Assembly: GCA_031761405.1 (NCBI GenBank)
Contig: JASEVX010000003.1
Span: 146,831,527 to 146,895,526 of the forward strand
DNA from: Serripes groenlandicus
Lineage: Eukaryota > Mollusca > Bivalvia > Cardiida > Cardiidae
Direction: 5' to 3'
Length of the DNA: 64,000 nt
Part shown: in pieces, positions 1 to 54,390 of the stretch
Layout: each line of letters starts with the position of its first letter
Position numbering within the stretch: position 1 is the stretch's first letter
The notes under the pieces: model-generated
Database searches by the model: none
The model's input: only the letters and a program-made list of their open reading frames with translations
Told to the model about the DNA's origin: nothing
Program-made: the position numbers and the translations under genes

Positions 1-1197
1 AACAACATACATACCTATCAAAATGTATCATCAATATGTTCGTATTAATTCATCTTAACATATGTTACCTCAATCTATAAATTTAAAACAAATCAAGATT
101 AATAAACAACCCAGTTACGCTAGTAATGGTCAAACGAGGGGTGTTCAAAAAGTTCGGAAAAGTGCTCCCTTTTCTTTATCTGTCGTAGCACTTCCGTACA
201 AATGCGCTATTATGTAGATCACGATATTCCCTGTTCGATAGGTTATTTACAGATCTGTTTTCTTCGTTGAGAATGAGAACGTTTTTCTATAGCAACGTCA
301 TCAACCTTATCCCGGCCCAATCTTCAGTATTTCTTTTTGTACATGTTTTCGAAACAATACGCCCATTATCTATTATTTTAAAGGTAAGATTACTAAACGA
401 CAGGTAATTATTCCCGCCATCTTCTGACATGATGTTGATGAATTAATTTTGATTTCTGTCGTCAGAAACTTAAACATCCGGTATTTTTTTCTGATAGCAG
501 GTGAAGAATAGAAACCTCCTTTTTAGGTTGACAAATAGAAAAGCCATGAACATATTTGAAAAAGAAAATACACATCATGTAACAAGGAACTTTCTGTAAT
601 ATATTGGAAACGACATTTACAAATTAAGAAGCATAAGGTTAAGGAATATGAATACTTAAAGAAAACTGGTAAACCATTTTCATATCGGTTTGGATAACTT
701 TAAGATTTGATATTAAATATAAAACACATTTCCAAGAGATTTACAAATATAGAAAAAGCAGCTTCAACTTGTAGTGTTGAGTCTCAAGATCATATATAAA
801 TGAGGATTCTTATTATCATTTTTAATTTATGAGTAAACAAGTAAGAAAGTGCCCTTTACATCATGATACAGTGAACCATGAATGTAAACATTTTAAAACA
901 AGTTGACGATCTTAACAAAAACTGTGCAATGGATACTAACCGATTCATTTATTTCAACATTGTTTGATGAAGATACAGTTGTACTTTCACCTTTAACACA
1001 ATTCAGAGACAGCGGATACTTTTGAGAACCCACACGAACCCATTTATTCACGGTGTGTAGGGGATGTCATTTCAACTCCCACAGAAGCAGCCTATTTTGC
1101 TTCATTTAAACATGATAATTAATGGAAGAAGAAAATACAAAAATCGTTGATAGCCTTTCGTGTTCTTAGGACATGATCGTTACACCAGAGGAAAGTT

Positions 1198-1427
1198 TTA
1201 ACCCTTTCCCTCATATAGACGCTTTATGACGCCTCTGCAGCAGACAGCTTTTTGAAAACATAGTGACAAAAGAAGAAATTGCACAAAACGTGCAATTTCT
1301 CCTTTTGCCACAATGTTTTCTACTTTTTGTCATAGGTTATCCATTCAATTATGGAGATTTTCTATGTTTTGACAAAATACGTTCAAAGTCGTCTGCTGCA
1401 GAATTGTCGTATGAGGGAAAGGGTTAA
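1198..1427. mobile_element. TTAA/CCCTTTCCC snapback MITE (family A)
   Basis: TTAA at both ends, then CCCTTTCCC and its complement GGGAAAGGG. The element is a foldback almost along its whole length: 'TCTGCAGCAGAC' on the left mirrors 'GTCTGCTGCAGA' on the right. A central short hairpin (GAAATTGCAC / GTGCAATTTC) sits in the middle. Non-coding and non-autonomous. Best-preserved member of the family in this window. Confidence 0.88.
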
Positions 1428-1793
1428 TTTTGTTTGGTAATGTGGAGAAGAACATAATAATCATATTGGTTATCTACAGTGTTCTATCTGTAATCCCCAT
1501 GATTATCAGCAGTGTAAAGTGTAAAAATACATGTAAATAAAAAATTAAACATTTACCTTTTACTCACAGAAGTGTTAACATGGATAAATACAACAGTTTA
1601 GTGGACAGAACTAAGGAGGACTTTAAATTACTATAATTATGATATGAGGTTAAACTCGTATCCAAGTTGGCCAAAATAAATTCAGTCCAGCTGAAAGTGG
1701 ATTCTTATACACAGGACAAAGTGATCATGTTCAATGTTTTAGTTTTTAGGAAATGTACCTTTCTAAGAGCACTCAATCATGACCAGCGCCAGC

Positions 1794-1868
1794 GGGGATT
1801 GAACCAGGGAAGCTGGTTCAAAATCTTCATCGCTAACTATTGGGTCAGGACGGATTCCTACTAAGCCA
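1794..1868 (-). mobile_element. tRNA-derived SINE head
   Basis: Read on the minus strand, TGGCTTAGTAGG at 1857-1868 matches the Pol III A-box consensus, and GGTTCAATCCCC at 1794-1805 is a B box, at tRNA-like spacing. No cloverleaf was established, so this is a SINE head or tRNA relic, not a tRNA gene. In the duplicate copy near 47.7 kb the A box is deleted while the B-box region remains. Confidence 0.55.
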
Positions 1869-2044
1869 TATGACCCGCATCAGATAGTTTTAACTCATGC
1901 ATAATGTGAAGACTCGGGTCAGACTGTGCATCTGCACAGTGCTAACAGCGTCTTCACTTATAATATATACTTTTCTGACAAAAAACAACAAACAATATTG
2001 CCCCACTAGTTGCACGCCTTTGTAACTATGTATTTTCACGGCAA

Positions 2045-2208
2045 AGTGTGGCACAAGGAGAAATTGCTGATAATCCTTGTGCCTTATTTTTTTAAACTAT
2101 TATATTGAAAAATTAAACATTCAATTTTTAGAGATTTTCCCATCGCTTCCCTAGATTTTTTTGATGTCGTCTGATGTAAATGTGATATTGTATGTGTGAA
2201 AGGGTTAA
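2045..2208. mobile_element. degenerate family A MITE relic
   Basis: The right end 'GTGTGAAAGGGTTAA', the body word 'GTCGTCTGATG' and a hairpin 'GGCACAAGGA ... TCCTTGTGCC' identify a decayed relative of the TTAA snapback family. The left terminus is not recognisable. Confidence 0.5.
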
Positions 2209-2436
2209 GTGGTGACAATTGTCAGGTGCGGCTCAAATGTTGCTACTTCTGATGATAAAGCTTTGTTACCTTTTATTAAATCAGCTGACGTTTTACCCCC
2301 GGAGTCAGGTTGTTGACGGCATCGCCCACTAACAGTACTTTGATTCCTTCTTGTATACGTCAAGGAATCTTGACAAATGTGTTAATCTTCATTTTTCAAG
2401 TAATTTGTTTATGGATTTTGTAAGAAAAACATAAAT

Positions 2437-2580
2437 AGAACCAAACTTAGAATAGGATTAAGTAGACATTTAAATTTTGAAATGAAACATCGTGTGTGTT
2501 CCTATTGTTTGCTCTGTAAAGCTTGTGTGATAGTTGAAAATGAATACCATGTCTTACTTCAGTGTGATATGTTTGAAAAC
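2437..2580 (+). pseudogene. LINE reverse transcriptase C-terminal remnant
   Basis: A 48-codon open frame on the plus strand has the look of the extreme C-terminus of an invertebrate LINE polyprotein: a basic stretch with LRIGLSRH, then Cys pairs (CSYC, followed by further Cys) and 'VENEYHVLLQC', resembling the final cysteine-rich segment of such proteins. No upstream RT domain is attached, so it is a 3' fragment. The matching stretch in the duplicate (about 48300-48430) has an internal deletion. Family identity is inferred from motif style only. Confidence 0.5.
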
Positions 2581-3357
2581 ATTATAGTTATGAGAAAAAC
2601 CTCTAACTTTATCTCTGTTTTAATGATTGACACTTACAGATAATGCTATTTGAAACAAAAGTCATTGGCTTACATAACCGTTGATTGTAGCTTGAACAAA
2701 AGTCATTCATAATAGCTTTTTCCCCAAATACACACTTCTCTGTATTTTGTGCCGGTGGCCTTTATTTACAAAGAATTATTATGATTAGTACTACTTGTAT
2801 AATTATTGACGTCAGTATGGGATAGGTTTTAATTTTGTACCATGGGGTGACGTAATCGAAAAGGGAGAAACCTATGTTATTATTGTTAAAAAAAAAACTC
2901 TATTGTTTGTTTGAAAAAAAACCTTTATGAATCAATAAATTGTATAAAATGATTTAAGACACAAAACGATACAAATTAGGCATGTCTTCTACCGTTATTA
3001 CAAAATTTTAGACACATCTAATGGGTATGTAATAACTTTCCCCTAACTTCCTAGGCTACGCTTGTTTTATAGTTTGGTTTACGACATGATTCATCAAAGC
3101 TCAGAAAAAGGTTTCTGGCGATGTTTTTGCCTATTTACAATATTGAGATTTTTAAATAAATGGGTAATCTTTCAAAAATCAAGGATGATTCATTTTAATT
3201 ACTACATATTACAGTATAATTCTAGAAACTGTAAAAACAACGTTAACCCAACTTTGCAATAGGCATGGCCGTAACGTGACCCATTCTATTTGTAAATGCA
3301 GCATGTCATCGCTTGGCGATTTTGGTCATTCTTATTGAATAGACGACAAGGTGTCAT

Positions 3358-18975: not shown

Positions 18976-19732
18976 TGTGTCTTGTTATAAGAGTTAAGAC
19001 TCAATTATACTGATGTTTGTTTTTAAGCAGATAAATCTCAGAATACTAATTCAAACACATACTAGAATGAAATTTGATCTGAATTTTCAAATAATTCTCA
19101 TTAACTTTTGCAGCTACCAACTTCTGAAAACATTATGAGAAAGGAGGGGATTTTATAACATGAGCAGGCTATCCTTTGCCTACAATAATTTCAGCAGTTT
19201 TACTTTTCCTTTTCATATGCTGATAACTGTTCATGCCTTTTGCAATCATTGTGGCAATTATTGTGTGCAAATTTCTCCTAAAAAAGGGTTAAGATGCCTA
19301 CAGTGTACAATTGTAAAACACCAACATATTTTATTTTTCTACTTTTATTTTTTTCAGCCTGTAAAATTTCCCAAGATGTATGATCACTGTGCTTTCTACT
19401 TTTGGTTCCATTGTTCATTTATTGAGGGAAATAAGTAAGTATTAGGAAAACATAGTTATATTCCATCTATTTGAACTTTTTCAAATATTTAGACAAATTT
19501 CAATGCATTTGCAGCAGACAATGTTTGAAAATATTGTGTCGACAAGAGAAATTGCTCAATGTGTGTCAATTCTGATTTGAGCAGAAATCAGACAGATTTG
19601 AACCAATACTGTTCAGAAATGCTATAAAGTCATTCATTTTCTCATAAACAAAATAGATGACTCTATGATGAGGTTTATTATCAATGGTTTCTTATGAGAA
19701 GTAATATTTTGATTCATTTAATTGATGTTATA
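18976..19732. other. AT-rich DNA with family A MITE scraps
   Basis: Scraps with family A vocabulary lie near 19240-19290 ('CAATCATTGTGGCAATTATT', AAAAAAGGGTTAAG) and 19500-19570 ('GCAGCAGACAATGTTTGAAA'). No intact termini pair up. No gene recognised. Confidence 0.5.
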
Positions 19733-20041: not shown

Positions 20042-22183
20042 ACTCAGATGCCTTTGAGGTGTTGACTGATCTGCTGCAGATATACTGTACTTAAATTGGA
20101 CAAGGTTAATTATAATATATATTTTAAATTTGTCATAAATTATTGAAGAAAAAGTAATCTGATATTTTAGAATTCAGCTTATGCAAAGATTTCTTTGGTA
20201 GATTTGAATTTTGATGTATTTATTCAATATGCAATTACAAATTTCCTTTGATAAATGAATTGTTGAATTTCACAACTTAAATTTTCAGGTGAATACTGAT
20301 TAACAATACAACATACATGGTCGTTGGTTATGTCACCTATACAGAAATAGCCTGACAATGCGTTGTCACTAGGAATTCAAGTTTATGTTACCATTTGATT
20401 CAAGTGACTGTGAAACATCCTAGTGTAAAGAGCTTCCAATTAAACAGAGAAGAAAATCAAGCAAATAATGTTGACTACAGACAGTTGATATGATTTGGAC
20501 CTATAAAGTATTCTAAGTAGTATAGAGAGAACACAGACATGTTAATGTTGCCAAAAAAAAAATTGGGACAAATAAAGAAAAGCATAAATTGCTCATTACA
20601 GGCAATTTCTATTCGTTTCACAATGTTCTGTACTTTGTCCACGATTTGATGCCAAGGTCATACCAACAAACTTGTAGTTGTGTATTCTCTAGCTGAGAAA
20701 GCATTATGAGTGATGCATCAATGTCAGGATGACTTTCTGTTAGCAATAGTTAATTACCTAACATATGCTATGACACATAATATAACTTAATGCGAATTAA
20801 AACGAAAGTTTCGCAAAAAATAATTTAACAGTTACAAGATTATTTTTAGTTCATTTAATATTCGATCGAGAGATCTTTATCGAAAAGATATATAGTTTAG
20901 ACTCCCGTTTGTCTACCATTTGCAAACATTTCAAGACTATCTATTGAGCAGATCTTAAATCACAATGTCGTTAAATGTAGATTTATATATTAATACGCAT
21001 CCAGGGTAATAACATGAACATTTATATTTTCATTATCATCAATTTCAATCTTTTAAGTAATCTACTCCCTTACACATAATGGTAGGTTGTATTAATGTGC
21101 TTCGCTTTAAAGATTTAAAGTAGTTTTAAAATACATTAAAACTACAATAAAATGTATTTAGATTTTCATAGTATATTAACTGTCTTGTTTACTTCAATGT
21201 TTTACTGAATGTTATTCTAAATTTAGATTTTTTCATCACAATACATTTAAATTCCGTCTATCCTTAAAATCAAATAAATTGATTTATATTTATAGTTCTA
21301 TACCCCTTTAGGTACCCCCTAATCCCGGATTAGTGATAGGTGTTAATCTGTACGAGTCGACGAACACACCGTTTTTACAACGTAGACTATGTCAAACCTT
21401 AAGTATCAATTATAAAATCGATAATTGTCACGCATACGTTTACCCGAGTTCTTATCGTATGTATATAACCAGACATTACATTGACGACCGGTTTGTTCGA
21501 TATTTTTTAATCAACACACATGTATAAAGTGTATAAACGGTGACAGTCTGCATATCATTACGAAAGTAATAGTTGAGTTCCGTTAAGCCCTCCCAGCTTA
21601 ACCAAAACATAGTCGACGTTTACATCATAGACAGCTATTGCAACACTTAAAAAATCATATTTGTTTAACATTGCATTACGTCTCAAAAGTATGCAGCTTT
21701 CCTCTGTATTACATCTTTAAAATCAAATTCACATCAGCAAACAAATTGAATTGTCCGCCATGTCTTCTAACACGCGGTTAAATTGACTAGACGAAATCGG
21801 TAAAAAAAACGTAAACGAAATATCACCCAATTCCCTATGCTTTCTGTATGAATAAGATCTATAATTATTTCTTTAATTATTTTATTCGGTTAAATATCAA
21901 ATTCGGTAAACAAGCGACACCTGAATAAATATACTGCTCAGAAAATGTTGCGATTAGGTTTATCGTTTTGAAGGGATTTTCTTTCTTGATTTACATCAAC
22001 TTGAAATTCAAATATATCTGTTGAGAAAGAAAGAGAGTATAAGTACAGTTGAAAACATGTAATATATACGTAAACAATAGCTTATACTTTTACTTGTAAA
22101 ATCGCCTTTATTTGAAAAAGGAAATGGAAAATACCAGTAGTCGGATAAACCTGAAATCGTATACCGATTTTTGATTCAAAAAA
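20042..22183. other. unassigned AT-rich DNA
   Basis: No recognised gene or repeat apart from a family A scrap near 20555-20640 (central hairpin 'AAATTGCTCATTACAGGCAA'). The open frames here are short and of unremarkable composition. Confidence 0.5.
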
Positions 22184-22310
22184 CGAGTATTCGAATATAT
22201 TCGAATAAGTAAAACGAATATTCGAATATATTCGAATAAGTAAAACGAATATTCGAATATATTCGAATAAGTAAAACGAATATTCGAATATCGTTTTCAG
22301 TATTCGTTCC
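22184..22310 (+). repeat. 31-bp minisatellite, 'CGAATATTCGAATA'
   Basis: GTAAAACGAAT recurs at 22209, 22240 and 22271, an exact 31-bp period. Units consist of overlapping TTCGAA palindromes. It ends in 'TATTCGTTCCCATCCCTA', the same phrase that ends the related repeat at 28410-28492. Confidence 0.9.
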
Positions 22311-25313: not shown

Positions 25314-27098
25314 CTAAAAATCAATCTCATCTAATGCCTGCGAACTTACCATAACCGGTGCCGTCCAACTAGCCCTGCTAGTGACACAACTATACAGAGA
25401 CCTTGTTCTGAAACGAGCTACTTTTCCTACTGCACTTTGCATTGAAATCAACTGACCAACTAAACATGCAATTTTTCTGACAGGAAATAGCAATTGCCCT
25501 GAAATTATTTCCATTAACAAATCTTCTATCAACAGCATTGATCGCTCTATACGATCTTCAGTTACTGATAGTGTACCTTTAAGTGTATCCCAATTATAAC
25601 CCAGCCAGGTAATAAGTTGACAAGGAGTCCAAATGCATTTATCCTCTGCAACTATGAATCCAAACTCGGATAAATCTTTGTGCATATAATCTGACAGTTG
25701 TAATGCTGTTTCAAAAGTACGAGCGTCCCCTAAGCCATCGTCAAGAAACATGACTATTCTTGAACCATTCGTTCTCCATTTAGTAACCACTACTCTCAGT
25801 AGTTTTGTAAATATGTAACCAGCCGTAGAAATTCCGAATGGAAGCGTTCTGAAGACAAAATAACGCGTCTCATTTTCCGATGGCCAGGAAAATCCTAAGT
25901 ATGTGGTATGTTCAGGATAAATCATAATATGGTGGTAAGCACTTCTTATATCAAACGAAAAGAGAAAATCACCGGCTCCAAACATTTGCCGAGCCACAGA
26001 CTGGTCTTCAAAACAACATCTATATTTGAATAACTCCGGATTAATATGACGACAATCTAAAACCAGTCTCGGTTTCCCGGATTTACCATAAGCCACTGTT
26101 AAAGGGTTGACTACTTTAAGTACATGCTCCACTTCTGAAATACACCCTTTACCCAAAAGACTCTCAATTTCGCTAAGTACAAAAACGGGATTATCCCGGG
26201 CAGACTTGTTATTTTTTAATATAACTGACTCTGGAATATTTCTGAAAGGTAGCTTATAACCTTTATTTACCACTTCTAAAACATATTCGTTAGCACCCGC
26301 CTTTTCCCAATGTTTTAAACAATGTTTTAACCTATTTACTGGTGTAGCAGACGCCTCTTTTAAAGTTGCACTCTCATTTACCCTCTCCAAAGGTTTAAGA
26401 CAAATAGTACTTATCTGTTTCTCGTTATTTAGAGCACCATAACCCTCAGTACCAGCCTTGCATTCCTGCCTCCAGTGTCCCGGTCTGCCACACCGGAAAC
26501 ATAGCCCAGGTCTTCTTCCAATCGCATGTGTCGTTGGTAGTTGGTTCCGCCCGCTTGGTGTTGAAGACGTCGAAGGCGACGTGCTGCCTGGTGTGTAGGG
26601 AGCAAAACGACGTGTTCTGACCCTCTTCTCCTGTTTGAGCTTACGCTCGGTCTTTATCTGAGCTCTGTTGATCTTTTTCTCATCATCGGAGTCGTCCGCT
26701 AAGGGGTGAGCCTCGTATTCATGGACTACGCGCCATCCGCCTTCGGATGAGTCGGCCAATTTAATAAGTTTCTGACGGTGAGAAATAAGATCAATACCTT
26801 CTGCGAGCTTCTTCTGAGCCGTAAGCACAGCTTCCTGGGAACCGGTATCTATCGCCTCCGCAAGGTATCCGTGGGACTCTTGCATTTTTCCCAAGACGTT
26901 TTTGTTTAATCTGTGCTGTTCTTCATTCCCTTTCTTACGAAAGCTAAAAGTCTCGTTAGTATTGAAACCGTGCTGAAGTTTAGATAACTCCGTCTGCGTT
27001 ATCTGCCTCTGGGAGTTAGCGACACGGTGTTCAAATGCGTCCAGTTTAGCAGACATGAGTTCCTCTAGACGCGTCAGCATTGCGTTTTCGGTGGCCAT
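25314..27098 (-). CDS. DIRS-type retrotransposon Gag-reverse transcriptase
   Basis: A single 594-codon frame from the Met at 27098 (sequence AAGATGGCC, a good start; the frame is open 24 codons further upstream). Numbering from 27170, an N-terminal coiled/basic Gag-like part precedes a zinc knuckle C224-C227-H232-C237 (CFRCGRPGHWRQEC). The RT follows, with GKPRLVLDCRHINPELF, SFDIRSAYHH (D407), RTLPFGISTAGYIF and the catalytic MFLDDGLGD (D477, D478). This RT style, with FLDDG and a VLDCRHIN entry, is typical of DIRS/Ngaro tyrosine-recombinase retroelements. The frame stops directly after DEIDF, where RNase H should begin, at the junction with foreign DNA. No recombinase is present, so this is a 3'-truncated copy with an intact N-terminal half. 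Confidence 0.85.
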   Translation of the reverse strand: MATENAMLTRLEELMSAKLDAFEHRVANSQRQITQTELSKLQHGFNTNETFSFRKKGNEEQHRLNKNVLGKMQESHGYLAEAIDTGSQEAVLTAQKKLAEGIDLISHRQKLIKLADSSEGGWRVVHEYEAHPLADDSDDEKKINRAQIKTERKLKQEKRVRTRRFAPYTPGSTSPSTSSTPSGRNQLPTTHAIGRRPGLCFRCGRPGHWRQECKAGTEGYGALNNEKQISTICLKPLERVNESATLKEASATPVNRLKHCLKHWEKAGANEYVLEVVNKGYKLPFRNIPESVILKNNKSARDNPVFVLSEIESLLGKGCISEVEHVLKVVNPLTVAYGKSGKPRLVLDCRHINPELFKYRCCFEDQSVARQMFGAGDFLFSFDIRSAYHHIMIYPEHTTYLGFSWPSENETRYFVFRTLPFGISTAGYIFTKLLRVVVTKWRTNGSRIVMFLDDGLGDARTFETALQLSDYMHKDLSEFGFIVAEDKCIWTPCQLITWLGYNWDTLKGTLSVTEDRIERSMLLIEDLLMEIISGQLLFPVRKIACLVGQLISMQSAVGKVARFRTRSLYSCVTSRASWTAPVMVSSQALDEIDF

Positions 27099-27664
27099 CT
27101 TGTACACGGAACGATTTAACTTGCTCGGTGTCGTCTGGTAGAATGACCAAAACCTGGACTGAATATACACACATGTACATGTGTCTGCACGAGATACCCC
27201 ATACAGGGAATATCCATTATTTCACTACTGTGAACCATGTACGCGTTATTTCTTACACGTAACGCTTAAGACAAATATTTCACTCTATACTAGCGAAACG
27301 CGTGAAATAGATAATAATGTTTGGTCATTTTTAACGAATTATTTTTTCTCAAAAAATAATACAGTTAATGCGATCGTGTTTGTTTGCGGAAGTCACGGTT
27401 AAACTACACTTCCGCTTAGAATACACATTCGCTGCACCTAAATAGTCCTAGTATTTTTTCGATATTAAAATGACTTCTACGTGTTATTTCAATACAGTGA
27501 AGTCATAATTATACTATCGAATCATCATAGATAATCAATTTTCTAGAAAATATCAAATTAACAGTACGCGCATATATATTTCATTTGTCGGCAGGTACGT
27601 ATAAGGCACGGGTATGAATTTTAGTCGTATGCCCATTCACTAGAAGTCGACCCCACGCTGTATA
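27099..27664. other. 5' region upstream of the DIRS-type ORF
   Basis: No paired terminal repeat for the element could be matched by eye. It contains 'GAAACGCGTGAAATAGA' and AT-rich DNA. It may hold the element's 5' untranslated region. Confidence 0.4.
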
Positions 27665-39378: not shown

Positions 39379-39575
39379 CGCCAGTAAAAGGATACAGAAT
39401 ATCTCTGACAAGATAACACAGTCAATGAACTCTGAAATAATGTTTAATCGTAATCAATTGCTACAATTAGCGAACATAAAACATTGTCATTTCGAAAGCC
39501 GGAAATAGGAACAAGGGAGACTACTCCCGTAACATTATAACAATAGTACAAACCAGCAGTTACTGCATACTGGCG
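39379..39575 (-). repeat. 3' LTR (left on plus strand)
   Basis: 197 bp, from CGCCAGTA to TACTGGCG, an 8-bp inverted terminal pair in place of the usual TG..CA. On the minus strand it carries ATTAAA, a possible polyadenylation signal variant. Nearly identical to 45050-45245. Confidence 0.92.
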
Positions 39576-39611
39576 TGATTTCTTCTTCTTTTTGCCTTCC
39601 TTTTTTTTTTT
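39576..39611 (-). other. polypurine tract
   Basis: Reads AAAAAGAAGAAGAAATCA on the minus strand directly before the 3' LTR, preceded by an A-rich run with GGAAGG. This is the expected place for second-strand priming. Confidence 0.75.
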
Positions 39612-39992: not shown

Positions 39993-40946
39993 CTATGTCT
40001 CATAGTCTTGTAAGTACTTTGGAGGTTTACGATTACGTTTTGGTCTATCACATTGCATTAAATCACTGCTGTTAGGTAGCTGTTCTGAATCACTGGCAAT
40101 GTTGCGATCAAATTGAACTGAACTATTAGTGCTGTCATTGTCACTTATAAACTCTCCCAGGAGAATCGGATAGTCGTCTTGGTTTGAATGTAAAACATGC
40201 GTATCAATAGTTTCAGCGGGTAGAGATAATTTGACTGGTATATCAACTGGAGCAGGTGGATGATAATCAGTTGGGGCGCGGATGTCATTATCATCGTCAC
40301 TATCGTTTAAGTCGATGTTTTGAGTTTGTAAAGAAGGCATGTCACATGGGACTCGAAAACATTCAGAAGTTTTTATTTTATATGACGTAGCGCGTAGCTG
40401 GTTGCCCGAGAACTTTTTTATGAAACACCATTCCCCATCAACTGAGACTACTAAATAGCGGCTACGAGCCTTGGATTTGTCGCGATCAGAATATACATAC
40501 ACTAAGTCACCAACCGTAATCTGAGATTGTTTAAGGGTCATGTCATTTTTGGCTTTAGAGAGCTCACTCTTTGGGTGATTCTTTATTCTCTGTCTATGTT
40601 GGTTAATGATTATGTCTCTATCTGACACTGGTAGCTGATCATGGGTGAATTGACTTCGTTGTGTCCACGATTCTCTGGCGGACAATCCCCTTTTACGGAT
40701 ACGCGAGTTTAAGCGCGCGATAGCAATTGCCAATTGAAAGTCTGAGACTGGTCCTCCTCCGGGTTCTTGGCGGAGAATCTCTTCTCCAAGTTCTCCAATG
40801 GCTCTTTCAGCAACAGGATTTTTGTTAATGTTTTTTACACGGCCAATCTCAATAGAAATACGAAGTTTTTTTAGCAAGTCATCATCTCTTAAGCTCACAA
40901 ATCCCGGTGCTGGGTCGACTCTGATTACTGCATGAGGGCCGTCCAA
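39993..40946 (-). CDS. retrotransposon integrase, C-terminal part
   Basis: Continues the integrase catalytic core in a different frame from the preceding ORF, with a 22-bp overlap. There is no true start: the first codon is TTG. D11 (IRVDPAPGF) and E47 ([14 protein letters not shown]) are separated by 35 residues, the D-35-E spacing of retroviral-type integrases. The first catalytic Asp lies in the upstream ORF. The C-terminal domain (about residues 150-215) has [20 protein letters not shown] and a GPY/F-like segment, usually involved in DNA binding or targeting. The tail is acidic and ends basic ([12 protein letters not shown]). The frame break lies inside the catalytic core and looks like a mutation, not programmed frameshifting. 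Confidence 0.88.
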
Positions 40947-42994
40947 CGGATGTAGGTCAATAACGCGATGCCATCTCGGAGTGTGTCACGTTTTTCATCT
41001 TTTATGATGCACGCGGTAGTAAACGAGGTTACAGTTTCACGAAGAACTAGTGTCAGTTGTCGATTGCGTTTAATAACGTCCGCAGCAAAGGAAACGCCGA
41101 CCATTTCGGGAGGATCTTCTGATGACTGTTTGATTAGGGTTTTCGGAAACTTTTGTAAGGAGGCACAAATGTGACACGATTCGCTTACTCGACTTATTAC
41201 TTTATTCATATCTAGTCCATAAAAGTGTCGTTTCATTACCAGCTGAAGTTGATGATTGGTTGGGTGGTCTAATTTAATATGAAGTGCTGTTGCAAGACCA
41301 TCGAGCACGGGTCGCGGAACCACAATAGCCTCTGTAGATGGTAAAAGCGGATCATTACGGCGCACAATTAAAACACCGTCTTTGGCAATGGAAACAACGT
41401 TTAGATATCTCTTTATATATTTGATGTTGGTAAGTTTCTTTGAAGGCCGAGTGCCTTGTTTAAGGTGGGCATGTGTGCGACGAAGATCTGGGCAATCTGA
41501 CTGAATGTCAGTCCATGCAGATCTAGTAGTAAATGGTAGACGTGTCATATTATCAACGACATCTTGGACATTTATTGACCTTACAACTGAGTCTTCGGTT
41601 TGTATAATAAAACAGCAGATCTGACATCGTGGTTCATTGCAGTCTGGTTCATTTCGACTAGAGAAATCTGACGGAACATTTGCAGAGCCTGCAAGATGTC
41701 TAACATTTACTTGATATCTACTGACAGTGGATAAGAATGACGTGACACGTGGACTGGCTGAGAACTCTCCGCGACACAGCTTTTCTATGGATTGAACACA
41801 TGGCTGGCTGTCAGTTAAAACACATGCTTGGAGTTTTGATTGAATGATGAATGGACTAAAATGCTTTACTGCGGCTGCGATACACAATGCCTCTATCTCG
41901 CAAGGTAGCCAAGTCACCTGATGTTTTCTCAATTTTGCACTGAAAAACCCAGCTAGCTGTAATTTATCTTTCCGCGTTACATATAATGTCGCCCCGATTC
42001 CATGTTTGGTGACAGAGCCATCAGTGACTATCCACAATTGGTCTGAAGGTCTAGGAAGAACAATATATTTGTGAGTAGCCAGGGCCATTTGTGCATCGGA
42101 GAAATGTTTGTACAAGTTATCAGTCCAAACTACTTTGTCATTTGACTGCTGGCCAGCTATCGCGTTGTCTAATGGAGATAATAACTGTGAACATCTCTGT
42201 AAAACACGGCCAAGTACTTTGTAAGCGCCTATAAAGGACCTCAAGCCACGTACAGTATCTGGAGGTGGACAGTTTGATAAAACCGCAATCCTGTGAGGGC
42301 TGGCAGTTAGACTTCCTTGTGACCAAATCCATCCAAGGATGGTTGTCGATTTTGGACAGATAATAGTCTTGGTAGGTGACAATCGTAGATTAGCTTGCTT
42401 TAATGCTCGAAGTACGCGTTTCCAATTTGCTAGCAGCTGTTCAGGTGAGTCAGCACCACAGTATAAATCATCTGCTAGCTTTGCTACGATACCGTCTTGA
42501 AGGCAATCACCAAGCACCCGGCACATGAGTTCTTCAAGGGCGGTTTCTGATCCCGGCATTCCCATAGCACATCTCGAATAAACTCTTACTCCGCGAAACG
42601 GTGTTGCTACCCCACAATACTTCATTGAGGACTTCGCTAGCGGTATTTGGTAAAATGCGCTGGTAAGATCTGATACAATGATGTATTTCCATTGTGCGAT
42701 GCTGCGCAGTGTCGAGTCCACATCGGGCATCAATGAAGGCTGAGGTTTGCTATACCGCCCAACATCCGCAAATGCAGTCACAAGTCGAAAACCGCCTTTA
42801 GGTTTCTTCACAAGGAAGGATGGGTTAAGGTATTCTGCTGTAATACCGATATCCTCTGGTCGTTGAAACACGCCTTGACTTTCAAGCTCATCAAATTTTT
42901 GTTGTAACTCGACAAGCTTGTCTCTAGCATATTGAGGTACCCTGCCCTTTCTTTGGGGGGGGGGGGGGGGGTTGCATTGAGCCCATGTTGACAT
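40925..42994 (-). CDS. retrotransposon reverse transcriptase-RNase H-integrase N-part
   Basis: Converts element RNA to DNA and begins the integrase. [15 protein letters not shown] (about 69-81), [12 protein letters not shown] with D109, and the active site [10 protein letters not shown] with D175-D176; the usual Y-x-DD reads L-A-D-D. RNase H: TDGS (D325), CEIEAL (E368), LTDSQP (D395) and SDFSSR (D443), all four acidic positions present. Integrase zinc-binding: H572-x4-H577 and C607-x2-C610. First integrase Asp: D639 (FAADVI). The frame then ends at residue 689 within the core. The N-terminus is read through a proline run encoded by a 17-base C tract. The Met at 42994 is simply the first in frame; the natural protein probably continues from Gag-protease. 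Confidence 0.93.
42955..42971 (-). repeat. 17-base C/G homopolymer inside pol
   Basis: On the coding (minus) strand a run of 17 C encodes PPPPP and part of the flanking codons. Any length change of one or two bases shifts the frame of the downstream RT. Confidence 0.95.
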
Positions 42995-43030
42995 TTGCTT
43001 CGAAGGGGCCCATAGCGCCGTTATAACCCA

Positions 43031-44881
43031 TTATGGTTGCATCAAAAACTTGCGCAATGTGTTATTAAATTCTTTTCTTACATTATCCGTTAATACATTG
43101 TCTGGGTCGAGTACTACAGTGTCTGAGTTCAACGTGAACTTGTCTGATTTAGTGACCTTTTCGGAGATGGGGATCTGCAAATCTATGTTCAAATCTGGCT
43201 GAACGGTGTAGCGCACCTGGCAAAAATGTTCATTTTTCTTGAGAACCTGAGGTTCTTGAGTGTCATTTACTAACCTAACTTTACCACCAATTACTTCGGT
43301 GATGTGTGGAAGTGGCCAGTTTTGGGATAGTTTTGTACAATCTTTACGTGGCTCTATGGCGAGAGTAGTTTCTGGGTCAATTTCATTATCAACATCAATT
43401 TCTATGTAGTTCCCAGGCCAAACCGTGGAAGAAGTTCCTGATCTTAAGACATAAGCCTGAGTACGCCGAACTCGATTACCTGTAGAATCGGATACGGTTG
43501 GGCCATTGTAAATATGCACAGATTCGCCGATGATGATTTGATGTTTAGCAGGTCTAACAGATATGTCATTAGTCATCATAAATGGGATTCCAGCGAGAAT
43601 GTCAACATCCATCTCGTTGACAACGAGTGCTTCTAGCTGCAGCTCCATGTTGTCTCTCGATAAGGTAAGACGCGTCTCTCCAACTATATTAAGTGGCGTT
43701 AACCCATCTGCTTGGAGCGCACTTTGGTCACTTTTCTTAATTATAGCTCCAATATATTCTGCTACAGAAGTTCTGATCATGCTTATTTCAGCTCCTGTGT
43801 CCAATGTTACTTGTAAAGGAAAATGTTTATAAAATACTTTCATCTGAGGTGACTTTTTTGTACTAACGCGGCGAGAAGTAACGATAGGGTATTCATTGTC
43901 AGTTTTGTCATTTCCTAAATGGTGGTGTTGGTTCATGGAGTTGTTATATTCATGTTCATCATCGTTTTCAACATTTCCATCAAAGGTTTGACGTACTCGA
44001 GTCATAAACATTCTGTCTTCCTCTGGTAGGAATTTGCATGCACTGAGAAAGTGTTGAACATTTGGACGCCCAGCTTGTTTGCACAAGGCACATATTTTGG
44101 ATTGACGTTTTGAGTTGGGGAAACGTGTTGATCGTTGAGGGGTTTTGTAAGCAGTTCGTAATATTTTGGCATCTGCTGACGAATGTATCTCATCCAGGAG
44201 ACTGTCCAATGCCTGGGATATTTCAGGTTTTAATGAGGAGAGAGTTTGCGATCTTAGTTCTGTTCCGTACCTTTGTTTAACCAAATTCGGAAGATCATTA
44301 TGTATTAAGCGAAGCCATGTTAAGACTATGAAATTTTCAAGTGACGGAGACATTTCTTCATCGGCTTCTGGTATCTCGCCATGGTGGCGTATGTTGCCGT
44401 CTGATTTTAGGAGGTTGTCTTCAATAAAGCTGTTCAGTCTTTGGTAAAGATCCTCATGTCGCTCTCCCTGTTCGATGCGTATGTTGTTGAAGTCTATGAA
44501 GTGAGCGCCAGTGGATTGGAACCCAAAATGTAATCTAACGGATTGCCATATACCGGATAGAGATGTTGAATTTTTGACAATAGTATTTCTAGAGATGATT
44601 GGGCAATAGTTGGCAATCTGCCCAAGCATCAACTCTAGGTGAGTAACTTTCTGGTCTGCAGTTCGTCGTTGAGCCTCTGGAACTGTCTCATCATCGTCCA
44701 CTAAACCGCGTCGAGGGTTGGCGTGAGATTTTCTTTGCCAAACAAAACCGTCAACGAGAAATGGAGCGAAATTCCGGTCCAGAGATAAAGTATACTGGAG
44801 ATTTTGTCTCCAAGCTTCGAAAGACGTTATATTTTCGTTTTTGGTTAAGGACCATTGTTTCGGTGCCCGAATGTTCGCCAT
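43031..44881 (-). CDS. retrotransposon Gag-like protein and protease
   Basis: 616 residues from a clear Met (MANIRAPKQWSL) 152 bp inside the primer-binding site. Residues ~1-250 are a Gag-like helical region with SFEAWRQNLQYTLSL near the start. A variant zinc knuckle follows: C264-x2-C267-x9-H277-x4-C282. The aspartic protease has LDTGAEISMI (catalytic D361) and later MDVDILAGIPFM in place of the usual ILG flap-side motif. It ends KFLMQP then TAA. The next ORF resumes in the same frame 12 codons later, but the intervening DNA reads sensibly only in another frame, so a shift in the T run at about 43044-43048 is likely. Confidence 0.9.
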   Translation of the reverse strand: MANIRAPKQWSLTKNENITSFEAWRQNLQYTLSLDRNFAPFLVDGFVWQRKSHANPRRGLVDDDETVPEAQRRTADQKVTHLELMLGQIANYCPIISRNTIVKNSTSLSGIWQSVRLHFGFQSTGAHFIDFNNIRIEQGERHEDLYQRLNSFIEDNLLKSDGNIRHHGEIPEADEEMSPSLENFIVLTWLRLIHNDLPNLVKQRYGTELRSQTLSSLKPEISQALDSLLDEIHSSADAKILRTAYKTPQRSTRFPNSKRQSKICALCKQAGRPNVQHFLSACKFLPEEDRMFMTRVRQTFDGNVENDDEHEYNNSMNQHHHLGNDKTDNEYPIVTSRRVSTKKSPQMKVFYKHFPLQVTLDTGAEISMIRTSVAEYIGAIIKKSDQSALQADGLTPLNIVGETRLTLSRDNMELQLEALVVNEMDVDILAGIPFMMTNDISVRPAKHQIIIGESVHIYNGPTVSDSTGNRVRRTQAYVLRSGTSSTVWPGNYIEIDVDNEIDPETTLAIEPRKDCTKLSQNWPLPHITEVIGGKVRLVNDTQEPQVLKKNEHFCQVRYTVQPDLNIDLQIPISEKVTKSDKFTLNSDTVVLDPDNVLTDNVRKEFNNTLRKFLMQP

Positions 44882-45049: not shown

Positions 45050-45245
45050 CGCCAGTAAAAGGATACAGAATATCTCTGACAAGATAACACAGTCAATGAA
45101 CTCTGGAATAATGTTTAATCGTAATCAATTGCTACAATTAGCGAACATAAAACATTGTCATTTCGAAAGCCGGAAATAGGAACAAGGGAGACTACTCCCG
45201 TAACATTATAACAATAGTACAACCAGCAGTTACTGCATACTGGCG
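45050..45245 (-). repeat. 5' LTR (right on plus strand)
   Basis: 196 bp, CGCCAGTA to TACTGGCG. Against the 3' LTR it shows CTCTGGAATAA versus CTCTGAAATAA and GTACAACC versus GTACAAACC. Followed seven bases later by the assembly gap. Confidence 0.92.
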
Positions 45246-45252
45246 TAGCACA

Positions 45253-45452
45253 NNNNNNNNNNNNNNNNNNNNNNNNNNNNNNNNNNNNNNNNNNNNNNNN
45301 NNNNNNNNNNNNNNNNNNNNNNNNNNNNNNNNNNNNNNNNNNNNNNNNNNNNNNNNNNNNNNNNNNNNNNNNNNNNNNNNNNNNNNNNNNNNNNNNNNNN
45401 NNNNNNNNNNNNNNNNNNNNNNNNNNNNNNNNNNNNNNNNNNNNNNNNNNNN
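45253..45452. other. assembly gap (200 N)
   Basis: Exactly 200 N, so a placeholder, not a measured length. It lies between the LTR element's right flank and the region leading into duplication copy B. The minus-strand frame running through it is meaningless. Confidence 1.
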
Positions 45453-45832: not shown

Positions 45833-48800
45833 AAAACATAGCATACCTTCGATCTATGAAGAATGTATCATCAATATGTTCGTATTAATTCATCTTAACA
45901 TACGTATTTACCTCAATCTATAAATTTAAATCAAATCAAGATCTAATAAACGACCAGTTACGCTAGTAATGGTCAAACGAGGGGTGTTCAAAAAGTCGGA
46001 AAAGTGCTCCTTTTCTTTATCTTACGTAGCACTGTCCATACAAATGCGCTATTATGTAGATCACGATATTCCCTGGGTCAAAAGGTTATTTACAGATCTG
46101 TTTTCTTCGTTGAGAATGAGAACGCTTTTCTATAGCAACGTCATCAACATTATCCCGGCCCAATCTTCAGTATTTCTTTATGTACATTACAATGTTTTTG
46201 AAACAGTACCGCCCATTATCTATAATTTTAAAGGTAAGATTACTAAACGACAGGTAATTATTCACCGCCATCTTCCTGACATGACTGTTGATGAATTAAT
46301 TTTGATTTCTGTCGTCAGAAACTTAAACATCCGGTATTTTTTCTGATAGCAGGTGAAGAATAGAACCTCCTTTTTTAGGTTGACAAATAGAAAAAGTCAT
46401 GAACATATTTGAAAAAGAAAATGCACATCATGTAACAAGGAACTTTCTGTAATATATTGGAAACGACATTTACAAATTAAGAAGCATAAGGTTAAGGAAT
46501 ATGAATACTTAAAGAAAACTGGCTAACCATTTTCATATCGGTTTGGATAACTTTTAAGATTTGATATTAAATATAAAACACATTTCCAAGAGATTTTCAA
46601 ATATAGAAGAAGCAGCTTCAACTTGTAGTGTTGAGTCTCAAGATCATATATAATGAGGATTCTTATTATCATTTTTTAATTTATGAGTAAACAAGTAAGA
46701 AAGTGCCCTTTACATCATGATACAGTGAACCATGAATGTAAACATTTAAAACAAGTTGACGATCTAAACAAACAACTGTGCAATGGTTACTAACCGATTC
46801 TCATTTATTTTAACATTGTTGATGAAGATACAGTTGTACTTTCACCTTTAACATAATTCAGAGACAACGGATACTTTGAGACTCCACACACGAACCCATT
46901 TATTCACGGTGTGCAGGGGATGCCATTTCAACTGCCCACAGAAGCAGCCTATTTTGCTTCATTTAAACATGATAATTAATGGAAGAAGAAAATACAAAAA
47001 TCGTTGATTAGCCTATCGTTGTTCTTAGGACATGATCGTTACACCAGAGGAAAGGACCCTTTCCCTCATATAGACGCTTTCTGACGCCTCTGCAGCAGAC
47101 AGCTTTTTGAAAACATAGTGACAAAAGAAGAAATTGCACAAAACGTGCAATTCTCCTTTTGCCACAATGTTTTCCACTTTCTGTCATAGGTTATCCATTC
47201 AATTATGGAGATTTTCTATGTTTTGACAAAATACGTTCAAAGTCGTCTGCTGCAGAATTGTCGTATGAGGGAAAGGGTTAATTTTGTTTGGTAATGTGGA
47301 GAAGAACATAATAATCAGATTGGTTATGTAGCAGTGTTCTATCTGTAATCCCCATGATTATCAGCAGTGTAAAGTGTAAGATTACATGTAAATAAAACAA
47401 TTAAACATTTACCTTTTACTCACAGAAGTGTTAACATGGATAAATACAACAGTTTAGTGGACAGAACTAAGGAGAACTTTAAATTCAGGTTTCCAAATTA
47501 CTATAATTATGATATGAGGTTAAACTCGTATCAAGTGTGGGCCAAAATAAATTCAGTCTCGAGCTGAAAGTGGAATTCTTATACACAGGACAAAGTGATC
47601 ATGTTCAATGTTTTAGTTGTTAGGAAATGTACCTTTCTAAGAGCACTCAATCATGACCAGCGCCAGCGGGGATTTTAACCAGGGAAACTGGTTCAAAATC
47701 TTCATCGCTAACTATTGGGTCAGGACGGATTCCTAACCATGCGTAAAGTGGAGACTCGGGCCAGACTGTGCATCTGCCTGCAGTGCTAACAGCGTCTTCA
47801 CTTACCAGCTAAAATGTAATATATACTTTTCTGACAAAATAAACCAACAAACAATATTGCCCTCACTAGTTGCACGCCTTTGTAACTATGTATTTTCACG
47901 GCAAAGTGTGAGTACAAGGAGAAATTGCTGATAATCCTTGTGCCTTATTTTTTTAAACTATTATATTGAAAAATTAAACATTCATTTTTTAGAGATTTCC
48001 ATCACTTCCCTAGATTTTTTTCGCTGTCGTCTGATGTAAAATGTGATATTGTATGTGTGAAAGGTTAAGTGGTGACAATTGCCAGGTGCGGGCTCACAAT
48101 GTTGCTTCTTCTGATGATAAAGCTTTGTTACCTTTTATTTAATCAGTTGACGTTTTATCCCCGGAGTCAGGTTGTTGACGGCATCGCCCACTAACAGTAC
48201 TTTGATTCCTTCTTGTATACGCCAAGGAATTTTGACAAATATGTTAATCTTCATTTTTCAAGTAATGTGTTTATGGATTTTGTAATAAAAACAGAAATAT
48301 AACCAAACTTAGAATAGGATTAAGTAGACATTTAAATTTTGAAATGAAACATCGTGTATGTTCCTATTGTTTGCTCTGTAAAGCTAGTGTGATAGTTGAA
48401 AATGTCTTCTTAGTTGTGGATATGTTTGAAACAGTATAGTTATGAGAAAACCTCTAACTTATCTCTGTTTTAATGATTGACACTTACAGATAATGCTATT
48501 TGAAACAAAAGTCATTGGCTTACATACACCGTTGATTGTACCTTTAACAAAAGTCATTTCATAAGTAGCTGTTTCCCCAGATACACACTTCTCCTGCTGT
48601 GTCGTAAACATTCCGTGAATTACTTTCTTAATCATATATAACCATGTATTTTGTGCCGGTGGCCTTTATTTACAAATAAAGAATTATTTTTATATAGTAC
48701 TACCTTGTATAATTATTGACGCCGCGTGGAAGCGCGGCGTCAGTATGGGATAGGTTTTAATTTTGTACCATGGGGTGACGTAATCGAAAAGGGAGAAACC

Positions 48801-49284
48801 AATGTTATTATTGTTAAAAAAACCTCTGTTGTTTGTTTGAAAAAAACAACCTTTATGAATCAATAAATTGTATAAAATGATTTAAGACTCAAGAAAGATA
48901 CAAATTTAGGTCATGTCTTCTACCGTTATTACAAAACTTTAGACACATCTAATGGGTATTAAATAACTTTCCCTAACTTCCTAGCTACGCTTTCTTATAT
49001 AGTTTGGTTTACGACCCGATTCATCAAAGCTCAGAAGCTCTGGCGATGTTTTTGCCCTATTTACAATATTGAGATTTTTAAATAAATGGGTAATCTTTAA
49101 AAAATCAAAGATGATTCATTTTAATTACTACATATTACAGTATGATTCTAGAAACTGTAAAAACAAACGTTGACCCAACTATGCAATAGGCAATGGCCGT
49201 AACGTGACCCATTCTATTTGAAAAATGCAGCATGTCATCGCATGGCGATTTTGGTCATTCTTATTGAATAGACGACAGGTGTCA
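45833..49284 (+). repeat. segmental duplication, copy B, block 1
   Basis: Collinear with 1-3357. Copy B has segments missing from copy A: 'CAGGTTTCCAAATT' near 47488, about 65 bp near 48592-48656 and the hairpin 'GCCGCGTGGAAGCGCGGC' near 48722. It lacks ~35 bp near 47738 that includes the SINE A box. The LINE tail relic (about 48300-48430) is partly deleted. Confidence 0.93.
47056..47281. mobile_element. TTAA snapback MITE (family A), duplicate of 1198-1427
   Basis: Carried inside the segmental duplication. The right TTAA is kept; the left TTAA is lost (GGACCCTTTCCC). The central hairpin has lost one T relative to the other copy. Confidence 0.85.
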
Positions 49285-50638: not shown

Positions 50639-52000
50639 CAGGATTTAAAAACCTCAACAGGCTTGACATCTTGTGTAGTTGTATTAAAGTAACCTTGAAG
50701 TAAAGCACCTGATACACACGGAGGAAGAAAACATGAAACATGTGTTATTGTACTTACTTTTCATGTACGCGGTATTTTTTTTTCTTGCTTTATTTTATAT
50801 TGTAATAACTAATTGTATTAACTGTTCCAAAAATTAATAGACTGACATTATTCATAAGGATAAAAGATTATCAAAAAGGTAATGTATTTCGAATATTTGT
50901 ATCTATTGCAATAAAAGCATGTTTAAATTTCCAGAATATATCTTTGCTATTATCATATCTTCACTAGCTTTTGAGTTTACTTGCTACTTGGGATGGGTGA
51001 TATTTTAGTAATCAATTTACTGTTACTTATACCTCTTATCTACGTCCCTGTCTATATGTATGTTTATCTACCATCATGTCAAATAATTCCGTATTCCATG
51101 ATACTCTGTTCAGAATTGTTTAAGGTTTAATAAATTGATTTAAACTTTTGTAGCATGTGACTTCTATAAGTGTTTGTAACTGTGAGTAAAGCAATTATTC
51201 TCACCCTCATCTACATCAAAACACCTCACATACTCCACAAATGATACAACACAACTACATATATAGGATAGAGTATGGAACGCCTTTGCTGCCTTATTAT
51301 ACAATATTTGTTTGTATTCTGTGTAGTCTTTACACTTTTGTGCAATACTCCTTTATGATATGTACAATGATTAATGTGTCAGGTGCATACTCCTTTTCGT
51401 TATGTGTTGCACACTTCATTATACTTTGTATACTGATGGTTGTGTCTTGTGAATTATCCATTTCGTTATTAGTATACCTCAGTATGTGATCAGTACCGAT
51501 CGTTGTGTCGTGTGCCTTCCCCATTCGTTATGTGCATACATTCAATAGAAAAGAGTACCCAACTCTGTCAAGATTTCTTTTAAGAAGTATGGACTTTCGA
51601 CTTAGAAACTACATTGAATTATGGTAACATCTTTAAAGACTTAACCCTTTAGGATATTGCTGTGAAACTTGGAATACTTGTTTACCATCATGACCCCATC
51701 TGTAGACAAGAGAAAGTAACTCTGTCAAGGATTTTTGTTTTGCCTCTTACTGCAAAAGAAAATGTTTTATTGTCAAGCACTAAAAACGTCGAGCGCGCTG
51801 TCTTTTCTGTGGAAAAGCATAACAAATGTCTCCATCAGCACACATCACATGTATTGTACTTTACATAGGGTTCCTATATAGAAATGTTATTTTAAAATTA
51901 CTGCGTTTCCCTACAAATCCATTCAAGGTCAGTTAACTGTGGTTATTATTATTACCCTCTTGAGACGAGGTCGCCGATGGGATATTGGGATCCGCCCGTA
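50639..52000. other. unassigned DNA with a degenerate 62-68 bp minisatellite
   Basis: No gene recognised. 51330-51540 has about three degenerate units with 'GTGTCNNGTG', 'CCNTTTCGTTAT' and 'GTATAC' words; the hydrophobic 82-codon frame there comes from this repeat. At 50731 an ATG opens MKHVLLYLLFMYAVFFFLAL, signal-peptide-like but short and AT-driven. 'AACGTCGAGCGCGCTGTC' near 51785 is a repeat-end scrap like that at 18945. Confidence 0.45.
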
Positions 52001-52015
52001 CGTGTATGGCAAGCC

Positions 52016-52817
52016 AATTGTCCAATAATTACGTGAACCCAGGTTCACGTTCGAAAAACTAGGATTAACGATCGATAAACTAGGTTTTTCGAACGTAAAA
52101 CCAGGTTTATCGAATACTAACTTATATTTTCGAGCGAAAACATAGGATAACGGGCGTAAACCATAGTTTACGCTCGTGAACCCATGTTCACGCTCGATAA
52201 ACTAGGTTTCTCGATTGAACTAAGAATTTCGGTCGTTATCCTAAGTTCACGAGCGTGAACCTATGTTTACGGGCGTGAATCTGGATTCATGAGCGTGAAC
52301 CATAGTTTACGAACGTGAACCTAGGTTCACGGTCGTAAAGATAGGTTCACGTTCGTAAACTATGGTTCTCGCTCGTAAACATAGGTTCACGGTCGTAAAC
52401 CTAGGTTCACGCCCGAAATTCATAGTTGATTTGATAATCCTAGTTTATCGACCGTAAACCATGGTTTACGTTTGATAAACTAGGTTTCTCGATTGAACTA
52501 CGAATTTCGGTCGTTATCCTATGTTTACGTGCGTGAACCGTGGTTCACGAGCGTGAACCTATGTTTACGAGCGTGAACCATAGTTTACGAACGTGAACTT
52601 ATGTTTACGACCGTGAACTTGGGTTTACGAGCGTGAACCTACGTTTACGAGCGTGAACTATGGTTTACGAGCGTGAACTATGGTTTACGACGTTATCCTA
52701 TGTTTTCGCTCGAAAGTATAGGTTAACATGCTTTTACGTTCGAAAAACCTAGTTTATCGATCGTTAATCCTAGTTTCTCGACCGTAAACCTAGGTTCACG
52801 TAATTATTGGACAATTG
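52016..52817. repeat. dyad array copy 1
   Basis: CAATTGTCCAATAATTACGT, then ~38 units of 20 bp, closing with the inverse ACGTAATTATTGGACAATTG. Arm variants are GTGAAC, GTAAAC, GATAAAC, GAAAAAC and GTTATCC. The variable pair between the two CGs takes many values (TT, AT, AA, AG, GG, CT, GT, CC, AC, TG). Roughly two CpG per 20 bp, against a CpG-poor background. Confidence 0.92.
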
Positions 52818-53594
52818 TCCAATAATTACGTGAACCCAGGTTCACGTTCGAAAAACTAGGATTAACGATCGATAAACTAGGTTTTTCGAACGTAAAACCA
52901 GGTTTATCGAATACTAACTTATATTTTCGAGCGAAAACATAGGATAACGGGCGTAAACCATAGTTTACGCTCGTGAACCCATGTTCACGCTCGATAAACT
53001 AGGTTTCTCGATTGAACTAAGAATTTCGGTCGTTATCCTAAGTTCACGAGCGTGAACCTATGTTTACGGGCGTGAATCTGGGTTCATGAGCGTGAACCAT
53101 AGTTTACGAACGTGAACCTAGGTTCACGGTCGTAAAGATAGGTTCACGTTCGTAAACTATGGTTCTCGCTCGTAAACATAGGTTCACGGTCGTAAACCTA
53201 GGTTCACGCCCGAAATTCATAGTTGATTTGATAATCCTAGTTTATCGACCGTAAACCATGGTTTACGTTTGATAAACTAGGTTTCTCGATTGAACTACGA
53301 ATTTCGGTCGTTATCCTATGTTTACGTGCGTGAACCGGGGTTCACGAGCGTGAACCTATGTTTACGAGCGTGAACCATAGTTTACGAACGTGAACTTATG
53401 TTTACGACCGTGAACTTGGGTTTACGAGCGTGAACCTACGTTTACGAGCGTGAACTATGGTTTACGACGTTATCCTATGTTTTCGCTCGAAAGTATAGGT
53501 TAACATGGTTTTACGTTCGAAAAACCTAGTTTATCGATCGTTAATCCTAGTTTTTCGACCGTAAACCTAGGTTCACGTAATTATTGGACAATTG
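52812..53594. repeat. dyad array copy 2
   Basis: Repeats copy 1 almost base for base with a 796-bp offset. It shares the palindromic CAATTG at 52812-52817 as the junction. It has one unit fewer in the AGCGTGAACTATGGTTTACG region (near 53450) and a few substitutions, for example CCGTGG to CCGGGG near 53337. Confidence 0.92.
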
Positions 53595-53761
53595 GCTTGC
53601 CATATACGTGCATGTCGAAATGTTTATACCGGGAAAAGGATGCACTGTTGTATTTCTAATTCCTTCGACGTGTTTTGCAATGGAATCACACAAAATATTC
53701 ACTTTTCTTTTAATGACTGCAATTAATATGCCTAACAAAAAGGCGTTTTCGCTCTAGCACT

Positions 53762-54390
53762 TTTATTTGTGGGTGGACATCTTCCATACAGCATACTGTT
53801 TTACAGGTTCAGTGTCAGGAGAGCTTGGACGGGTTTAACTGACTTAGATCAAAGGTTAAGGCCACAGTGTATACTAATACACCTGTATGCAATGACATCG
53901 TTGCTCTCGCACTTTGATTTGTGGACGAAATCACGTCATACTTCATACACAGGTCCAGTATCAAAATAGTTTGGATGCGTTTGTGTTTCTCCGATTTATT
54001 TCAAAGATCAAGGTCAATGTGACTAGTATACGTCTGTAATGAATGGGTCATTACTCTCTAGCCCTGTCATTTAAGGATGGAATTCTGGACTACTTCATAC
54101 ATAGGTTTAGTGTAAAGAGATCTTGGACATGTTCGAGTTTTACTTACCTAATACAAAGGTCAAGGTCACAGTGACTTTAATACATGTCTGAAACAACGTA
54201 TAAAACAACGGCATCGCTCTAGCACTTACATTCCCGATGGAATTCTTTCATACTTCATACATTGGTTCGGCGTAAAGAGAGCTTGGATGGGTTCATGCTT
54301 CACTGAAGTAGGTCAAAGGTCAAGGTCATAATGAATATAATACTTCTGTACAAGAATACCTGGCAAGGTCATTTGTATCGTCAGCGACGC
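53762..54390 (+). repeat. ~155-bp tandem repeat, four units
   Basis: 'TTTGTGGRYGGAAAT'-like starts near 53766, 53915, 54070 and 54235, each followed by 'CATACTTCATACAYAGGTT', 'GAGCTTGGAYGGGTT' and 'AAAGGTCAAGGTCA'. It ends 'CGTCAGCGACGCCCTTGTTT'. Non-coding. Confidence 0.72.

Follow-up and report, generated by a model that had tools for sequence, protein, structure and literature searches.

A single copy of a 1600-bp element (52005–53604) lies in the window, the whole 64-kb stretch of DNA analysed here. It starts with TATGGCAAGCC and finishes with GGCTTGCCATA, its ends reading TATGG...CCATA, and its body is an array of short, dyad-symmetric units. The hexamer TACGTG occurs on both sides as a 6-bp direct flank or target-site duplication (TSD), seen at one insertion only. 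An earlier note on this DNA had described two arrays spanning 52001–53608, with matching 39-bp termini. The array is real and there are indeed two, but they are near-identical tandem copies; the limits had to be corrected to those given above, and the termini, although present, are in fact the tips of longer inverted repeats (Table 1). No frame of at least 150 aa lies inside the element, and the only stop-to-stop frame of at least 90 aa overlapping it (51929–52201, minus strand) had no Pfam match.

Table 1. Parts of the 1600-bp element and of its flanks, in window coordinates.
Feature	Position	Strand	Evidence
Left target-site duplication, TACGTG	51999..52004	.	Same as 53605–53610
Whole element, 1600 bp, TATGG...CCATA, probably a non-autonomous foldback-type TIR element	52005..53604	.	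TIR and TSD; 2/113 in end-pair scan
Left terminal tip, TATGGCAAGCCAATTGTCCAATAATTA, 27 bp, not built of units	52005..52031	+	Perfect inverted match to 53578–53604
Left terminal inverted repeat (TIR), about 8 units included, inner limit approximate	52005..52202	+	96/99 ungapped; blocks of 93–97 %; 0/500 random-unit arms
Array 1, 39 profile-defined units with consensus CGTRAACNNNNGTTYACGNN and dyads both in mid-unit and at the linker	52032..52800	.	Profile, motif, autocorrelation
Monomer 1 of head-to-tail dimer, aligned part	52019..52814	+	Four substitutions and one 20-bp gap against monomer 2
20 bp in monomer 1, missing from monomer 2	52643..52662	+	Alignment
Dimer junction, TAATTATTGGACAATTGTCCAATAATTA, perfect palindrome	52801..52828	.	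Read directly; tip occurrences
Monomer 2, aligned part	52816..53591	+	Alignment to monomer 1
Array 2	52829..53577	.	Sequence reading, motif matches
Right terminal inverted repeat, inner limit approximate	53420..53604	-	Inverted-repeat alignment, block identities
Right target-site duplication, TACGTG	53605..53610	.	Same as 51999–52004

The periodicity of the array was measured in monomer 1 (52032–52802), with 300 dinucleotide shuffles as a control. Autocorrelation reached 0.567 at lag 20 (0.256 ± 0.016 in the shuffles), 0.505 at lag 40, 0.468 at lag 60 and 0.389 at lag 10; the shuffle means were 0.255–0.257 (sd 0.015–0.017) and the largest shuffled value was 0.316. The 20-bp period and the 10-bp peak predicted for this array thus exceed all 300 shuffles. 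Dyad axes with at least six of seven complementary flanking bases numbered 13 in monomer 1 against 1.9 in 300 shuffles (sd 1.4, largest 7). With at least five of seven, there were 44 axes, separated by exactly 10 bp in 28 of the 43 steps, in agreement with the two-fold axes proposed to recur about every 10 bp. Sequence CGTRAACNNNNGTTYACG, allowing at most one mismatch, was found 39 times in the 64-kb window, always within the element, where 0.02 matches were expected. Profile segmentation divided monomer 1 into 39 units, 14 of which had an insertion or a gap with respect to the 20-column profile; the period is therefore real, but the spacing is not strict, although it had been thought to hold almost throughout. 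Positions 52020–53593 contain 142 CpG, or one per 11 bp (about one per 10 bp had been claimed), with an observed/expected ratio of 2.12; this ratio is 0.86 to the left of 51900 and 0.76 to the right of 53700. A CRISPR array, which the earlier note had also discarded, was ruled out because the units are variable, the linkers are 2 bp long and there is no invariant repeat with unique spacers.

As inverted repeats, the left and right ends are identical at 96 of their first 99 positions without gaps, followed by an 11-bp gap and by several more matching units. Over paired blocks of 40 positions, the arms were 93–97 % identical as far as about 52176; the following block had 85 % identity and those further in 78–95 %, and among these the blocks with 90–95 % correspond to the inner copies of the ends, located at the dimer junction. 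The outer arms of monomer 1 (52032–52202 versus reversed 52643–52802) aligned with a score of 109 and 146 identities in 157 aligned positions, a score reached by none of 500 random-unit arms (best, 88.5). Conversely, the score of the inner arms (38.5) was reached by 38 of 500 random-unit arms, which indicates no ordered symmetry beyond that of random units. We therefore claim ordered terminal inverted repeats only for about 170–200 bp, and the centre of the monomer is an array without proven long-range order. For the whole arm, the score of 150.1 was above the best of 300 unit-shuffled arms (120.5); the identity, 288/328 (0.878), was not above the best of 300 unit-shuffled arms (0.884). We also considered the whole monomer as one ordered palindrome, with 89 % arm identity (311/351), and rejected it because the inner part shows no order beyond that of random units and the identity falls within that of the shuffles.

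The interior of the element is a head-to-tail dimer of a unit of ca. 0.8 kb. The alignment of both monomers spans 796 columns, with 772 of the 776 ungapped columns identical, four substitutions and one 20-bp gap. At the junction, a 28-bp perfect palindrome, the two tips are fused at their common CAATTG (52812–52817), with the outer 10 bp of each tip gone. The simplest reading would be that an exchange or a switch of template took place recently at the CAATTG common to both tips; without these outer 10 bp, the inner tips should be unusable, leaving just the two ends of the element. It is improbable that the dimer is an assembly artefact, arising from two haplotypes or from an error in the repeat graph. 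The near identity of the monomers (772/776) would fit such an origin, as would the presence of a 200-N gap elsewhere in the window (45253–45452), but the junction falls within the tips, without any duplicated flank, and the monomers differ by 20 bp and four substitutions. Separately, a variant unit pair, CGATAAACTAGGTTTCTCGATTGAACTA.GAATTTCG, occurs three times in monomer 1 (52195–52233, 52412–52451 and 52473–52511), twice direct and once inverted and degenerate; this recurrence apparently records some higher-order rearrangement.

Three features absent from the earlier note, namely TACGTG as a target-site duplication, inverted repeats of this length and a recent doubling head to tail, together point to a non-autonomous TIR transposon, and we are highly confident that the element is a transposon. 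Its inverted repeats (96/99 ungapped) are accompanied by TACGTG on both sides, at one insertion only, and they are long and contain tandem repeats, as in foldback elements, with symmetry beyond that of random units in the outer ca. 170 bp only. It is probably a non-autonomous, foldback-type cut-and-paste DNA transposon, likely of the IS3EU/GingerRoot type, whose transposase would be encoded elsewhere. Among the options put forward earlier, that of a transposase array holds in so far as this is a transposon, whereas a binding role for the array stays conjectural.

The assignment to IS3EU/GingerRoot, which we favour slightly, derives from the combination of TA..TA termini and a 6-bp TSD, the latter from one insertion only. 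According to section 3.3 of PMC10045372, all complete IS3EU families have TA..TA termini and their TSD is usually 6 bp long, while GingerRoot has a 6-bp TSD and mostly TA..TA termini; the same source counts 45 IS3EU families in Repbase in May 2022, 17 of them autonomous. The Repbase rule for non-autonomous elements, as given in PMC4455052, requires that the TSD be equally long and that the first 11 positions can be aligned; the comparison made here covered the TSD length. A lone 6-bp direct flank could be a coincidence. Exact 11-bp inverted ends starting with TA and lying 60–4000 bp apart form 113 pairs in the window, and two of these have a 6-bp direct flank, the second of them, at 22196, being situated within a palindromic tandem repeat. 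This place (22180–22291), a 31-bp tandem repeat rich in TATTCGAATA palindromes, is the only other one in the window with such ends and flank.

The same architecture could belong to another superfamily, such as Mutator, hAT, P or a relative of Polinton, or Tc1/mariner if TA was duplicated and TACGTG flanks it by chance, although we consider this rather unlikely. The ends can also be read as TA/TGGC...GCCA/TA, and PMC4079207 regards most foldback elements as belonging to Mutator. Additionally, the TSD is 4–10 bp in IS256 and MuDR and 6 bp in Polinton, so that its length alone does not decide the superfamily (PMC10045372). Nevertheless, TA..TA termini plus 6 bp is the combination reported for IS3EU/GingerRoot in this last source. 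Under Tc1/mariner, the 6-bp direct flank, with a chance of about 1 in 4096 for one fixed end pair, would go unexplained. Polinton ends start with AG. The TSD of Mutator is usually 8–10 bp, yet the 6 bp of the element fall within the 4–10 bp given above for IS256 and MuDR together.

The units were then compared column by column in the monomer 1 profile. The best-kept columns were the CG pairs, A5, T13 and T14, and the least kept were the two linker bases and positions 4 and 15; information was lower in the linker and the central four bases than in CG and A5/T14. This pattern resembles what half-sites would give, as far as a profile segmentation anchored on the CG columns, and thus leaning on them, can suggest. 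Among 26 units, position 4 is split between G and A (14 and 10) and position 15 between C and T (10 and 13). Half-sites for nuclear receptors or forkhead proteins (motifs GGTTCA and GTAAAC) were discarded because of these splits, each motif fitting only part of the units. Along the foldback, arm-versus-arm mismatches affected 4 of 67 CpG positions and 36 of 261 other positions, which is the direction expected under constraint but misses the 0.05 level (one-sided p = 0.055).

Coordinated changes between the arms were weak or absent. Within units of monomer 1, the complementary fraction by profile was 0.698 versus 0.688 after permutation (p = 0.26). When the sequence was cut more crudely, into 33 units partly out of register, the signal was weak (p = 0.017), with no excess of perfect units (6 versus 5.5 expected), and there was no covariation across the linker dyad by either the profile (p = 0.81) or the cruder cut (p = 0.40). 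The symmetry of the units is hence clear, whereas selective upkeep of the palindromes is not convincing.

These data bear on the role of the array. There is an even chance that it plays no part in binding and is a passive minisatellite, produced when slippage or unequal exchange amplified a 20-bp palindrome; this reading concerns the role of the array only and is compatible with its being part of a transposon. The unconvincing covariation within units agrees with this, as do inner arms that are no more symmetric than by chance and a 20-bp length difference between the monomers that fits ordinary array slippage. On the contrary, the lesser conservation of the linker and the central four bases with respect to CG and A5/T14 is more in line with half-sites, with the caveat that the segmentation is anchored there.

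A binding role, which we consider less likely than not and for which extra transposase binding is our favoured though tentative candidate, would operate as follows. The transposase would recognize the 27-bp tip, and the alternating CGTRAAC/GTTYACG half-sites beside it would have multiplied through slippage in replication or through unequal exchange. Of these half-sites, the outer ones at least may act as extra transposase-binding sites, with one dimer per dyad and successive dimers one helical turn apart; a dimeric protein might thus occupy one face of the DNA. Secondary transposase-binding sites have been reported or proposed in the tandem repeats of foldback TIRs (PMC3573991, PMC4079207). 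It is more doubtful that the interior is a functional nucleoprotein scaffold, with almost strictly alternating half-sites, one per helical turn, loading many dimers of transposase or of a host protein on one face. Loading of such dimers would possibly be sensitive to CpG methylation. If true, this would be an IS3EU-type foldback element whose body is one continuous binding lattice and not a gene remnant. To our knowledge, there is little biochemistry on IS3EU. The element offers a compact natural case of a transposon body made almost entirely of phased symmetric half-sites, caught soon after a head-to-tail doubling, and, possibly within IS3EU, a case in which it can be tested how subterminal binding sites and foldback structure are linked to the origin of satellite arrays.

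The earlier note had also proposed a ladder of hairpins. Folded end to end as DNA, the monomer reached –312.5 kcal/mol (z = –39.8, 20 shuffles), and limiting the pairing span to at most 24 nt reduced this to –103 kcal/mol. A ladder of independent local hairpins is thus not the favoured single-strand fold, and we rejected it also because of the unconvincing arm covariation; the comparison has no bearing on cruciforms in duplex DNA. The ordered inverted repeats and the array centre together account for the strong fold of the monomer. As RNA, it reached –511.1 kcal/mol (z = –36.6, 20 shuffles), as would suit a source of hairpin RNA in which each monomer, if transcribed, formed one long hairpin feeding small-RNA pathways. 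We find this very improbable: an array of alternating half-sites would presumably fold in this way anyhow, and there was no Rfam match at gathering score anywhere in the window.

The element is of a known kind, a non-autonomous TIR element with internal tandem repeats, and has an unusually fine symmetric layout. It resembles IS3EU/GingerRoot, as described in PMC10045372, in its TA..TA termini and 6-bp TSD, but has no transposase, and the parts of that source dealing with the superfamily do not mention an interior of palindromic 20-mers. Two satellites of Crassostrea gigas, CgiSat35 (690 bp) and CgiSat47 (129 bp), are labeled IS3EU in Table 1 of PMC8268682, so a bivalve is already known to have tandem forms with this label. 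Galileo (PMC3573991, PMC4168063) and Tetris (PMC4079207) share with the element long inverted repeats able to hold tandem repeats, and they also have non-autonomous copies and proposed secondary transposase sites. Their repeats, however, are direct and of about 140–220 bp, in contrast to the 20-bp dyad-symmetric units found here, and the TSD is 7–8 bp in Galileo (PMC3573991, PMC4168063) and 8–10 bp in Tetris (PMC4079207), versus 6 bp in the element. Tetris repeats are a source of satellite arrays (PMC4079207), and dimers of transposable elements are discussed as satellite seeds in PMC12628747. The Pearl-family MITE-like elements of bivalves (PMC5139131) are likewise non-autonomous, modular and molluscan, with internal tandem repeats; DTC84 of this family has a conserved palindrome near a repeat junction, and the CvA repeats are related to the satellites BIV160 and Cg170, the likeness to our element being one of description alone. 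A narrow search of the open literature, in the portions of the sources that it returned, found no description of an IS3EU foldback element made of palindromic 20-mers.

In sequence collections, the array patterns had no exact match in viral contigs or in prokaryote genome contigs (records of the same genome possibly being left out). Similarly, the whole element had no match in phages (distant mode) or in plasmids (near mode), and a 32-base TIR pattern had none in viral contigs. A 16-base tip pattern matched 25 viral loci and a 19-base tip pattern two bacterial loci; these were taken as chance matches because none of the 27 had, in the stretch examined, either the array motif or the two ends. 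On these collections, a phage or prokaryote relative was discarded. The inverted repeats of Drosophila FB, sea-urchin TU and Tetrahymena Tlr also consist of short tandem repeats, as in the element, but they would differ from it in sequence and TSD length.

The window is eukaryotic in character, with animal-like traits. A Pfam scan of 24 of the 43 stop-to-stop frames of at least 90 aa in the window, or of parts of them, identified reverse-transcriptase domains above the cut-off at 25314–27170 and 40925–42994, other fragments being sub-threshold. Two 198-bp direct repeats (39379–39576 and 45050–45246), 99 % identical, flank retrotransposon-like ORFs (39993–44881) and are perhaps the LTRs of a young element; the 200-N gap follows the second of these repeats. 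A 99-aa frame at 19139–19438 had weak, sub-threshold matches to C1 and PTEN-C2, which we take to be perhaps exons of an animal tensin-like gene. The window also contains two copies (15–3356 and 45854–49284), 90 % identical, of a dispersed repeat of ca. 3.4 kb, repeats of ca. 145 bp with AAGGTCAAGGT motifs, reminiscent of bivalves, and, adjoining the element on its right, degenerate tandem repeats of ca. 150 bp (53750–54350).
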